A stretch of 64,000 nucleotides of DNA from an uncultured Rhizobiaceae group bacterium (GTDB lineage: Bacteria > Pseudomonadota > Alphaproteobacteria > Rhizobiales > Rhizobiaceae). The stretch spans positions 124,001 to 188,000 of the forward strand of contig CANMVS010000002.1 in assembly GCA_947501445.1 (NCBI GenBank). The letters are read 5' to 3'. The first letter of the stretch is position 1. Every line of letters starts with the position of its first letter. The notes under the pieces were generated by a model. It searched no databases. It had not been told where the DNA came from and was given only the letters and a program-made list of their open reading frames with translations. Shown one piece after another: positions 13,259 to 15,720 of the stretch. Position numbers and translations under genes: made by a program.

Positions 13259-13885
13259 ATGACAAACCGAGCAACAACGACGAAATCTCACATTCTCGAA
13301 TGCGCATGCAGCCTGTTTTATCGCCACGGGTTTGCCCGGGTCGGTGTTGATCAGATCGCCGAAGCGGCAGGCATAACCAAACGCACGCTTTACAATCATT
13401 TTCAAAGCAAGGACGCGCTTGCAGCGGCGGCCCTGGCTGTTCAAAATGAGTACATCCTTCATCAGGTCCAACTGTGGCAACTGGAAGAAGCCGCTGATCC
13501 GCGACAGATTTGCAAAATAATATTCGAGCAGTTGGTCAAATGGGTTGTGCAATCCGATTGGAAAGGCTCCGGATTTACCCGAATAACGATGGAGCTTGCC
13601 GAGTTGCCCGGTCACCCGGCAAGAAAGGCATCAAGCGATCACAAGGCTGCTCTGGAAGCGCTGCTGACACGCTATTTCGCATTGTCCGCAGCAACTGAGG
13701 CAACACAACTTGCCCGTCGGATCATCATTTTGATTGAAGGAGGCATGTCATTGGCATTAATTCATGCAGACCCGGAGTATCTGGTTGAAGCGGCAAAAAC
13801 TGCCGACTCCATGTTTGACAGTCCAGCAGCCATCCAGAGCCGACAACAGTCAGCAGGAGACATGGGATCAAGCCATGCAAAATAG
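13259..13885 (+). CDS. TetR/AcrR-family transcriptional regulator
   Basis: Ligand-responsive repressor, 208 residues from the ATG at 13259; a TTG at 13238 preceded by GGAAG 9 bases away would add 7 residues and cannot be excluded. Residues 8-55 form the TetR helix-turn-helix (FYRHGFARVGVDQIAEAAG, ITKRTLYNHFQSKDAL). The rest is the all-helical ligand and dimerisation domain, similar to regulators of the YcdC/AcuR type. It is divergent from a hotdog thioesterase, its probable target. The gene's 3' end is close to the promoter region of the first DUF1127 gene. Confidence 0.88.
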   Translation: MTNRATTTKSHILECACSLFYRHGFARVGVDQIAEAAGITKRTLYNHFQSKDALAAAALAVQNEYILHQVQLWQLEEAADPRQICKIIFEQLVKWVVQSDWKGSGFTRITMELAELPGHPARKASSDHKAALEALLTRYFALSAATEATQLARRIIILIEGGMSLALIHADPEYLVEAAKTADSMFDSPAAIQSRQQSAGDMGSSHAK

Positions 13886-13996
13886 TCATGCCTCCTATGC
13901 ATATATTGCGCTGCACAAATTCAATATCGATACCTATATTGTTTTCAGGACAACAACGCACTTGGCGAGGCCAAGGAATTCAATCGGTTTGAAATT

Positions 13997-14137
13997 ATGA
14001 ATATGATGCTTACATATAACAAATGGCGGTCTTATCACAAGACACGTGATGCTCTGCAGCGTCTGGGCGATCATGAGTTGAATGATTTGGGCATCAAACG
14101 CGACCAGATTGAATCCATCGCCCGTAAGGCGTTGTAA
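13997..14137 (+). CDS. DUF1127 small protein (CcaF1-like position)
   Basis: A 46-residue basic protein starting MNMMLTYNKWRSYHKTRDAL and containing the DUF1127 core (W-R-x-Y/H, L-x-x-L-x-D-x-E-L-x-D-L-G-I, R-x-x-I). Such proteins act as small RNA-binding or envelope/phosphate-response factors in alphaproteobacteria. There is no clear ribosome site; AAGGA lies 19 bases before the ATG, too far, so the start could be any of the ATGs at 13997, 14003 or 14006. Immediately downstream lies a three-hairpin RNA with anti-SD loops, the arrangement known for RSP_6037/CcaF1 and CcsR RNAs in Rhodobacter. The 13-base sequence CCAAGGAATTCAA occurs both just before and just after the gene. Confidence 0.85.
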   Translation: MNMMLTYNKWRSYHKTRDALQRLGDHELNDLGIKRDQIESIARKAL

Positions 14138-14157
14138 ACCAAGGAATTCAAAGTTTC

Positions 14158-14280
14158 GCCGGGGCATACTCCTCCTCCCAATGCCCCCGCGATTAGACTG
14201 ACAGCACTCCTCCTCCCAGCTGTCAGTCAAGCTAAATGACGCTCGCTGGACCTCCTCCCCCAGCGAGCGTTATTTTTTTG
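14158..14280 (+). ncRNA. Cuckoo/CcsR-type small RNA array: three hairpins with anti-SD loops
   Basis: Three consecutive stem-loops follow the DUF1127 stop. Hairpin 1 at 14161-14187 pairs GGGGCAT with ATGCCCC; hairpin 2 at 14196-14228 pairs GACTGACAGC with GCTGTCAGTC; hairpin 3 at 14239-14270 pairs ACGCTCGCTGG with its complement. Hairpins 1 and 2 share the identical 13-base loop ACTCCTCCTCCCA and hairpin 3 has ACCTCCTCCC. Stems differ in sequence while the CUCCUCC loops are kept, a sign of selection on the loops. This matches the cuckoo RNA family of alphaproteobacteria, stress-induced sRNAs processed from DUF1127 transcripts. The third hairpin ends in a T-run and serves as terminator. Confidence 0.85.
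14239..14279 (+). terminator. Terminator of the DUF1127-sRNA transcript
   Basis: An 11-bp stem (ACGCTCGCTGG / CCAGCGAGCGT) is followed by TATTTTTTT. It is also the third anti-SD hairpin of the RNA array. Confidence 0.88.
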
Positions 14281-14453
14281 GCTTATCAAACACGATCATA
14301 AGTGATCAATGCGGCCGACGATATCCAGCCCTTGCACAAACGCATGGCCATCTCGCAAATATTGCACCGCACAATATTATTAGAACACCCAACCGGGACA
14401 ATTAACAATGATGGCTCTCAGTAACCATCACCGAAACGAGAAGGATAAAAACA

Positions 14454-14597
14454 ATGGTTTCTCTAAAACAGTCTTTTCAGAATTGGCGCAGCTACCGAAA
14501 TACCTGTAATGAACTCTATCGCATGTCTGATCGCGATTTGAATGACATAGGTATTGCACGTGGCGACATTCCATTTGTTGCGCGTCATCGCTCGTGA
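14454..14597 (+). CDS. DUF1127 small protein
   Basis: A 47-residue protein starting MVSLKQSFQNWRSYRNTCNE, with the DUF1127 core MSDRDLNDIGIARGDI. AAGGAT lies 8 bases before the ATG, which fixes the start. It lacks the three-hairpin array of the preceding paralogue, but a simple hairpin follows. The gap to the first DUF1127 transcript is 175 bases and includes that transcript's terminator, so it is probably transcribed on its own. Confidence 0.82.
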   Translation: MVSLKQSFQNWRSYRNTCNELYRMSDRDLNDIGIARGDIPFVARHRS

Positions 14598-14621
14598 AAA
14601 GTCGGTAACCTGTACATCAAT

Positions 14622-14651
14622 CGCCTGCGAAACCCTTAAGCCTCGCAGGCG
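14622..14651 (+). terminator. Possible terminator after the second DUF1127 gene
   Basis: A 9-bp stem CGCCTGCGA / TCGCAGGCG with a 12-base loop is followed by TTCTGATT, a weak T-rich tail. It begins 25 bases after the stop. Confidence 0.45.
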
Positions 14652-14844
14652 TTCTGATTCCGGGAACAGCGGCACAAATCCACTATAATTTCGGTCGCCA
14701 AATTGACTATTCCGCCACCTCCCAATTGAGGCCGTGCACTGCAGAAATCGCATAGCAGGCCTGTGAAATTGGCGCTTACAAATTTGCCAATAAGGATTAC
14801 ATAGCAATCAACAGTTCAGCTTGAAAACAGGAAGGAGATTTACA

Positions 14845-14991
14845 ATGAATATCGTAAAAGACTACCAGAATTGGCGTAAGTACCGCCGTACAGTTAACCA
14901 GCTTCGCAGTCTGCCAGACAGCCTGCTGAGTGATATTGGCGTAAATCGTCATTCCATCAACGATTTCGCCCGTCAGGTTTCTGACAACTAA
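14845..14991 (+). CDS. DUF1127 small protein
   Basis: A 48-residue protein starting MNIVKDYQNWRKYRRTVNQL and containing LPDSLLSDIGVNRHSINDFA. The ribosome site is unusually strong, GGAAGGAGA about 8 bases before the ATG, which is perfectly complementary to CUCCUUCC-like anti-SD sequences and so a natural target for the upstream hairpin RNA. It is the third DUF1127 gene within one kilobase; the three proteins differ clearly, so this is an old duplication. About 250 bases separate it from the second copy; I see no other gene there. Confidence 0.82.
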   Translation: MNIVKDYQNWRKYRRTVNQLRSLPDSLLSDIGVNRHSINDFARQVSDN

Positions 14992-15093
14992 ATTCAGATC
15001 CAAGTTACCAAATCAGAGCGTTGTACCAGTTCCCGATGCGTATCCCTCGTGCGCGGAACATTGGTCAGCGCTCTTTTTGCATGCAAAATACTA

Positions 15094-15134
15094 GGGCCTG
15101 TGGACATTTGGGAATCCCAAATGTCCACAGGCCC
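15094..15134. mobile_element. 41-bp perfect palindrome made of two IS left ends
   Basis: A 20-base arm (GGGCCTGTGGACATTTGGGA), one central base and the exact reverse complement make a 41-bp element. The arm is identical to the first 20 bases of the complete IS at 22253, whereas the IS right end differs (GGGCCCGTGGACATTC). TA flanks both sides, like the TA duplication of the IS. It is a minimal derivative of the IS, either a deletion product of two head-to-head copies or a mobilised mini-element. Confidence 0.85.
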
Positions 15135-15720
15135 TACAACACATACCAGTTTATACGAAACGGTCACTAAAGCTGTTGGTCACACCTTGGGGAAATTCAT
15201 GCGGATCTGGTCGATACTCATACCCATTTTTATGGCAGGCGTGCTTGCCGGTTGCAGCGGCGAAGAGCAGGACGCCGAAATCGTCCCTGTCATCCGCCCG
15301 ATCAATGCCCTGACCGTCGAGTCGGTTGAGCTTGGCTTCCAGCGCAGCTATCCGGCCGAAGTGCTGCCCGCACGGGAAGTGGATCTGACCTTTCGCGTCT
15401 CCGGGCGGATCACGGAACTGCCATTCCATCCCGCCATGGGACTCACCCAGCCGACGTCGGCCGCCAATTCTTTCTTCAAGTTCGCCCAGCAGCGTATAAA
15501 ACAGGTCGAGATCAGAGTGAAGGTGCATGTTTCATCCAACCCGACGAAAGGCCGTTTGTCTGGCCTTGTCGGGATATCGCGTTTTCCAATTACCCCTTCA
15601 ATTGGTCAGTCGGATTGGAGATTTCTTTCGATTGAGCGCCAGCATTTTGCTATTTGGCGCCACATGGCCGGTTTGATTGACGGGCAATCATGTGCGTGGA
15701 GATCAGCGCCGTTTCTGTGA
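15135..15720 (+). pseudogene. Truncated inverted duplicate of the efflux adaptor 5' end, fused to unrelated sequence
   Basis: Bases 15135-15422 repeat, in inverted orientation, bases 21341-21054, which hold the ribosome site, lipoprotein signal and first 75 codons of the adaptor gene. I see one difference (a GCC to GTC change, Ala to Val). The ATG at 15199 would still make MRIWSILIPIFMAGVLAGC, the intact lipobox and the N-terminal domain up to GRITELP. Beyond the junction the frame runs 98 codons through unrelated DNA to a TAG at 15718-15720. The chimeric frame is probably not functional, but its translation and export signals are intact. It abuts the 41-bp IS-end palindrome. Confidence 0.85.
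15423..15528 (-). pseudogene. 5' fragment of a GIY-YIG-like protein gene
   Basis: On the minus strand an ATG at 15528 reads MHLHSDLDLFYTLLGELEER and continues IGGRRRLGESHGGMEW before being cut exactly at the boundary of the duplicated efflux fragment. From memory this wording resembles the start of a family of small GIY-YIG-containing proteins (FYxLLxxLExRxGGxRRLxxxxGxMxWPxRGVYFF). The catalytic GIY-YIG part is missing. The fragment suggests the duplication landed inside, or deleted most of, such a gene. Confidence 0.4.

Follow-up and report, generated by a model that had tools for sequence, protein, structure and literature searches.

The three-hairpin RNA

The DNA analysed here, a stretch of 64,000 nucleotides referred to as the window, carries three DUF1127 genes on the plus strand, each identified by a match to PF06568; the first lies at 13997..14137 (46 aa, E 2.4e-13), the second at 14454..14597 (47 aa, E 5.7e-15) and the third, which has a ribosome site at 14830-14838, at 14845..14991 (48 aa from its ATG, E 1.7e-11). 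Nine DUF1127 matches were found in this genome. Directly behind the first gene, with a gap of 13 bases between its stop codon (gene end 14137) and the RNA start, the plus strand from 14151 to 14275 scores 123.9 bits against the Rfam family RF02344 (ar14), whose cut-off is 58.8, and covers the entire model (positions 1-123 of 123). An earlier note on this locus had placed the array behind a DUF1127 gene, and the PF06568 match just upstream bears this out. The RNA is an ar14 (NfeR1-type) small RNA, a family already described, of which NfeR1 of Sinorhizobium meliloti has been studied best; many Rhizobiales are reported to have such RNAs, built of three hairpins whose loops each carry an aSD motif (PMC7143759).

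Three adjacent hairpins are predicted in 14151-14280, at 14156..14192, 14196..14228 and, including a T run, 14234..14279 (all on the plus strand), with a folding energy of -61.4 kcal/mol against a shuffle mean of -26.7 (z -9.95; 0 of 200 shuffles folded as low). Every loop presents CCTCCTCCC, at 14171-14179, 14209-14217 and 14251-14259; these are the sole copies in the 64 kb (three on the plus strand, none on the minus), and the window contains the triple-motif pattern a single time, while none of 100 shuffles contains it. The three-hairpin array with a common loop motif is confirmed, well beyond chance, and two details of its description also hold, namely that loops 1 and 2 are identical over 13 bases (ACTCCTCCTCCCA, at 14168-14180 and 14206-14218) and that the three stems differ in sequence. 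Its bounds, first given as 14158-14280, were off by a few bases compared to the Rfam match at 14151-14275. Hairpin 3, with the T run to 14279, is probably the transcription terminator; a terminator scan of the plus strand, which is limited to loops of 8, did not list it, its loop being 10.

Conservation was assessed in 30 ar14 loci, comprising the window and the best-scoring locus from each of 29 relatives, a choice which biases the set to close matches. All three CCTCCTCCC motifs are invariant in 30/30 of these loci. In hairpins 2 and 3, to which the covariation count applies because the RNAalifold consensus was without hairpin 1, the paired cells amount to 97.6%, and both sides are altered in 22 of the 25 pairs across the 30 loci, a level reached by 0 of 500 shuffles and lost when the partners were slid. 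A covariance search and loop conservation in relatives had been named beforehand among the tests that could refute the array, and both came out in its favour, for ar14.

Invariant loops on variable stems also fit a multivalent binding site, so that the loops may serve mainly as a sponge, for example for DUF1127 protein, rather than for pairing with mRNAs, and RNA binding is reported for CcaF1, which is a DUF1127 protein (PMC10253847). Such protein titration is nevertheless quite unlikely, as silencing of an mRNA reporter by NfeR1, described for ntrB, was lost on mutating its three loops (PMC10746234).

DUF1127 genes and the distribution of ar14

The genome survey covered 121 genomes, that of the window and 120 relatives. 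ar14 was matched at E <= 0.001 in 88 of these and above the cut-off in 72, and the window's own family has a match in 72 of 73 genomes. DUF1127 is present in 86 of the 88 genomes with ar14 compared to 25 of the 33 without it (Fisher p 0.0004, kinship ignored). Strict dependence of ar14 on DUF1127 was rejected because two genomes, G051 and G088, have ar14 without DUF1127; the ar14 match in G088 is weak. At the level of the 30 loci, a DUF1127 gene lies inside the fetched 3.1 kb in 26 and directly upstream of the RNA in 13, and it is absent from the fetched 3.1 kb of the other four (L012, L017, L030 and L032). The RNA might be read as no more than the tail of the DUF1127 mRNA, serving to stabilise or terminate it and inactive in trans, given that it begins so soon after the stop codon and closes with a hairpin and T run. 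This is very unlikely: a terminator does not need an invariant motif in three loops, these four loci have the RNA without the gene in the 3.1 kb fetched, and in the same-genus genome G004 the RNA is found directly behind its own promoter.

A search of named genomes with triple-CTCCTCCC patterns gave at least 120 stretches in at least 80 loci, and the counts that follow hold among the matches listed. By title, 61 of the listed loci are alphaproteobacterial and 19 are not, with L081 (Pseudomonadota) counted among the 61 and L150 (an unplaced bacterium) among the 19. Of the 61 alphaproteobacterial loci listed, 32 have DUF1127 no more than 1 kb from the array, compared to 0 of the 19 others; the 32 is an underestimate because the locus edge is less than 1 kb from the array in 19 of the 61. 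The distance from the end of the DUF1127 reading frame to the first loop is at most 65 bases in 15 of the 61. The 19 other loci listed are mostly tandem or simple repeats by eye, none of them forms an ar14-like trio of adjacent hairpins, and in some, such as L104 (a Streptomyces), the majority of motifs are unpaired. When the ar14 model was run on 15 of the at least 80 loci, its cut-off of 58.8 bits was passed, barely (59.2 to 67.7 bits), by six of the ten loci with Rhodobacteraceae names, the other four falling below it, and also by the single Labrenzia locus, by none of three Devosia loci and not by one unplaced locus. The genera of these ten loci are presumed to belong to Rhodobacteraceae.

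This genome has three copies of ar14, that in the window and two on another contig, at C11:188493-188615 (75.9 bits) and C11:188930-189054 (70.8 bits). The alignment shows changed loop motifs in the last of these (L003 1501-1625, minus strand) despite its score, and this copy may be losing its function or shifting to other targets. A second ar14 is present at the corresponding place in G006 and in the C11 cassette of this genome, and is absent in the window. Here the second cassette (14361-14700) begins with a second copy of the promoter box described below (14361..14374, plus strand), followed by CAACCG at the position expected for the -10 and by the second DUF1127 gene, which is intact; there is no second ar14. 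This cassette seems to have decayed, and DUF1127-ar14 cassettes seem to duplicate and decay.

Some other features of the neighbouring sequence were recorded. A 13-base exact direct repeat, CCAAGGAATTCAA, lies on both sides of the first DUF1127 gene (13971-13983 and 14139-14151), and the same-genus genomes G002 (L029) and G003 (L021) have a leader that is similar by eye and an ar14 with no DUF1127 gene directly before it. At 15092-15136 a perfect inverted repeat, with arms of 22 bases separated by a single base, adjoins an ORF resembling a cut-short lipoprotein or adaptor gene, and is perhaps, at a guess from the sequence, what is left of an insertion element.

The third DUF1127 gene has as its ribosome site GGAAGGAGA, which occupies 14830-14838 and precedes the ATG at 14845; this site had been proposed as a natural target of the loops. 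It does pair well with them, as only 6 (loop 1), 8 (loop 2) and 12 (loop 3) of 399 start regions are as strong, these being mechanical ORFs taken with their first start codon, many of which are not genes; of 4000 random 20-mers, 49 were as strong for loop 1 and 119 for loop 3. The pairing is not specific, however, and is equally strong for the ribosome, with 2 of the 399 start regions as strong against the 16S anti-SD tail. Specific targeting of the third DUF1127 mRNA was rejected on this ranking; the site near 14830 is simply a strong ribosome site, with the gene as no more than a possible target.

A conserved promoter motif ahead of the first DUF1127 gene

A composite element, ATTGCRCTGCACAA-N15-CTATAT, is found ahead of the first DUF1127 gene and is common to the upstream regions of relatives. 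In the window it consists of an exact match to the conserved box ATTGCGCTGCACAA (13905..13918, plus strand) and, 15 bases past it, the -10 box CTATAT (13934..13939, plus strand). Upstream lies an LsrB-like site, TGCA-N6-GCAT with one mismatch (TGCAAAATAGTCAT), at 13876..13889 on the plus strand; this is -70 to -57 when counted from an assumed start at 13946, seven bases past the -10. In the promoter of NfeR1 the reported LsrB site spans -72 to -57 (PMC10746234).

The composite pattern was written after viewing nine loci together with the copy on C11. When one mismatch is allowed, 32 matches are found, spread over 19 of the 121 genomes, and a reversed control has 0. Of these matches, 28 precede ar14 or DUF1127 (25 by script, each within 170 bases, and one in G001 and two in G004 by comparison of coordinates); the remaining four (L201, L207, L219 and L222) have neither behind them, and from their similar sequences look like one conserved stretch. 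Among the 14 matches in genomes outside those used for writing the pattern, 13 have ar14 or DUF1127 behind them. In support of the LsrB-like site, the sequence GCCATGC, with up to one mismatch, occurs in 19 of 26 related promoters, where shuffles gave a mean of 1.6 and at most 6. A generic sigma-70 scan was no better than shuffles (3 sites against 2.3), though it marked the CTATAT at 13934.

The same promoter is found in front of either partner. Three ar14 copies of G004 begin about ten bases after its -10, and in the window and in G005 it stands ahead of a DUF1127 gene instead of ar14. Five of the six ar14 matches of G004 are clustered with DUF1127 genes (G004:C26:227407-229061), three of them directly behind near-identical promoters. 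With up to three mismatches and within 500 bases upstream, the composite is present in 15 of the 30 ar14 loci, that of L035 at the far end, compared to at most 5 in shuffles; as the other 15 are without it, other genera use other promoters.

A promoter of the RNA's own directly before it, as in NfeR1, was considered and none was seen: the 20 bases ahead of 14151 contain no sequence within one mismatch of CTATAT. Of the 13 loci with DUF1127 directly upstream, 12 likewise have no such box in the last 20 bases, the exception being L033; this absence is weak evidence because 14 of the 17 other loci are also without one.

The factor reported to act on NfeR1, LsrB, is called VtlR in Brucella (PMC11975290). 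In Brucella melitensis VtlR is reported to activate AbcR2 together with three DUF1127 genes (PMC12595884), and in Agrobacterium abcR1 and a small-protein gene (PMC7486931); the VtlR motif reported in Brucella has 15 bases. AbcR (ar15, RF02345) resembles ar14 as an alphaproteobacterial RNA with anti-SD motifs under LsrB/VtlR control, but constitutes a separate Rfam family and has its own locus in this genome (C8:161754-161876, 53.6 bits), where no LysR gene was noted by eye among the ORFs of at least 150 codons beside it (L225). We infer that LsrB/VtlR would control the promoter of the first DUF1127 gene and that the RNA would be cut from the DUF1127 mRNA. As no paper joining NfeR1 with DUF1127 or with CcsR was found among the open-licence papers searched, the promoter common to DUF1127 and ar14 may be unreported, yet it is close to published work.

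Relation to NfeR1 and CcsR and a proposed mode of action

A cuckoo/CcsR array is defined as a row of two to four neighbouring hairpins that each carry CCUCCUCCC, and the window has three; it equally shows the ar14 pattern of three hairpins with CCUCCUCCC unpaired in every loop and variable stems. The array had been called cuckoo/CcsR-type, and what prompted that name stands, namely the repeated CCUCCUCCC loops and a position behind DUF1127 like that of CcsR behind ccaF1. The nearest named family is, however, ar14/NfeR1 in place of cuckoo/CcsR, and the promoter appears similar to that of LsrB-controlled NfeR1 rather than to the RpoHI/RpoHII type. NfeR1 presumably belongs, by its likeness, to the family of the S. 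meliloti RNAs SmelA075 and SmelA099, and RS0680a of Rhodobacter is taken here to be the later-named CcsR. A 2011 paper put SmelA075 and SmelA099, which have three or four hairpins, in one family and likened RS0680a, a two-hairpin unit (section 2.7), to a shorter version of it (PMC3927594); the window RNA is a three-hairpin unit.

NfeR1 (Smr14C2) of Sinorhizobium meliloti is matched here in the full-length model, in the three CCUCCUCCC-loop hairpins, in the several copies per genome and in a promoter that has CTATAT and, at much the same distance, an LsrB-like site. It differs in that NfeR1 is reported with its own promoter (PMC10746234, PMC7143759), whereas here the promoter is ~245 bases upstream with the DUF1127 gene between. 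CcsR1-4/ccaF1 of Rhodobacter sphaeroides (CIN1 locus, cuckoo family), compared by description only, likewise has anti-SD loops directly behind DUF1127, but four RNAs and an RpoHI/RpoHII promoter are reported there (PMC10253847), against one three-hairpin unit and an NfeR1-type promoter here. The same paper, citing Reinkensmeier and Giegerich 2015, describes CIN1 as CcsR-like RNAs linked to DUF1127 genes (PMC10253847). The RNA itself is not new, its kind being published, as is the link of CcsR-like RNAs to DUF1127 genes.

That the RNA is instead a CcsR-like stress RNA, transcribed from a heat-shock promoter of the RpoH type, processed to smaller fragments and active during oxidative or heat stress, would agree with the likeness in loops and in place behind a DUF1127 gene, and with the passing of the ar14 model by six of the ten listed loci with Rhodobacteraceae names. 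It is unlikely, as the conserved promoter appears to be of the NfeR1 type and the three hairpins make up one full-length ar14 unit.

The reading that we prefer, to which we give a probability of roughly 0.7 taken as a whole, is that of a trans-acting ar14 small RNA made together with a DUF1127 gene. An LsrB/VtlR-type promoter at ~13876-13939 would drive one transcript of roughly 330 bases, in which a short leader is followed by the first DUF1127 gene and then by the RNA in the place of the 3' UTR, and which ends after hairpin 3. The RNA of ~125 bases would be released by cleavage, probably by RNase E, as with CcsR, which is reported to be freed from the ccaF1 3' UTR with RNase E (PMC8625941). 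Any one of the three equivalent loops could then block translation of several mRNAs by pairing with their ribosome binding sites; for NfeR1, silencing via the loops, activation by LsrB and Hfq independence are described (PMC10746234). Of this scheme, the sequence analysis shows the family, structure, conservation and position of the RNA and a conserved promoter motif, and the start site, regulator, co-transcription, processing, termination and targets are inferred.

This arrangement ties together NfeR1 of rhizobia and CcaF1-CcsR of Rhodobacter, which have been studied separately, and within the window's family one promoter motif is common to DUF1127 genes and ar14. Whether NfeR1 has a chaperone is termed an open question in PMC10746234, and the neighbouring DUF1127 protein is a concrete candidate for the chaperone of an NfeR1-type RNA. 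It is conceivable, though doubtful, that ar14, an Hfq-independent RNA, has its dedicated partner, a chaperone or maturation factor, in the DUF1127 protein from the same transcript. If so, the LsrB-driven DUF1127-ar14 cassettes would be a self-contained regulatory unit, which duplicates and decays as a whole.
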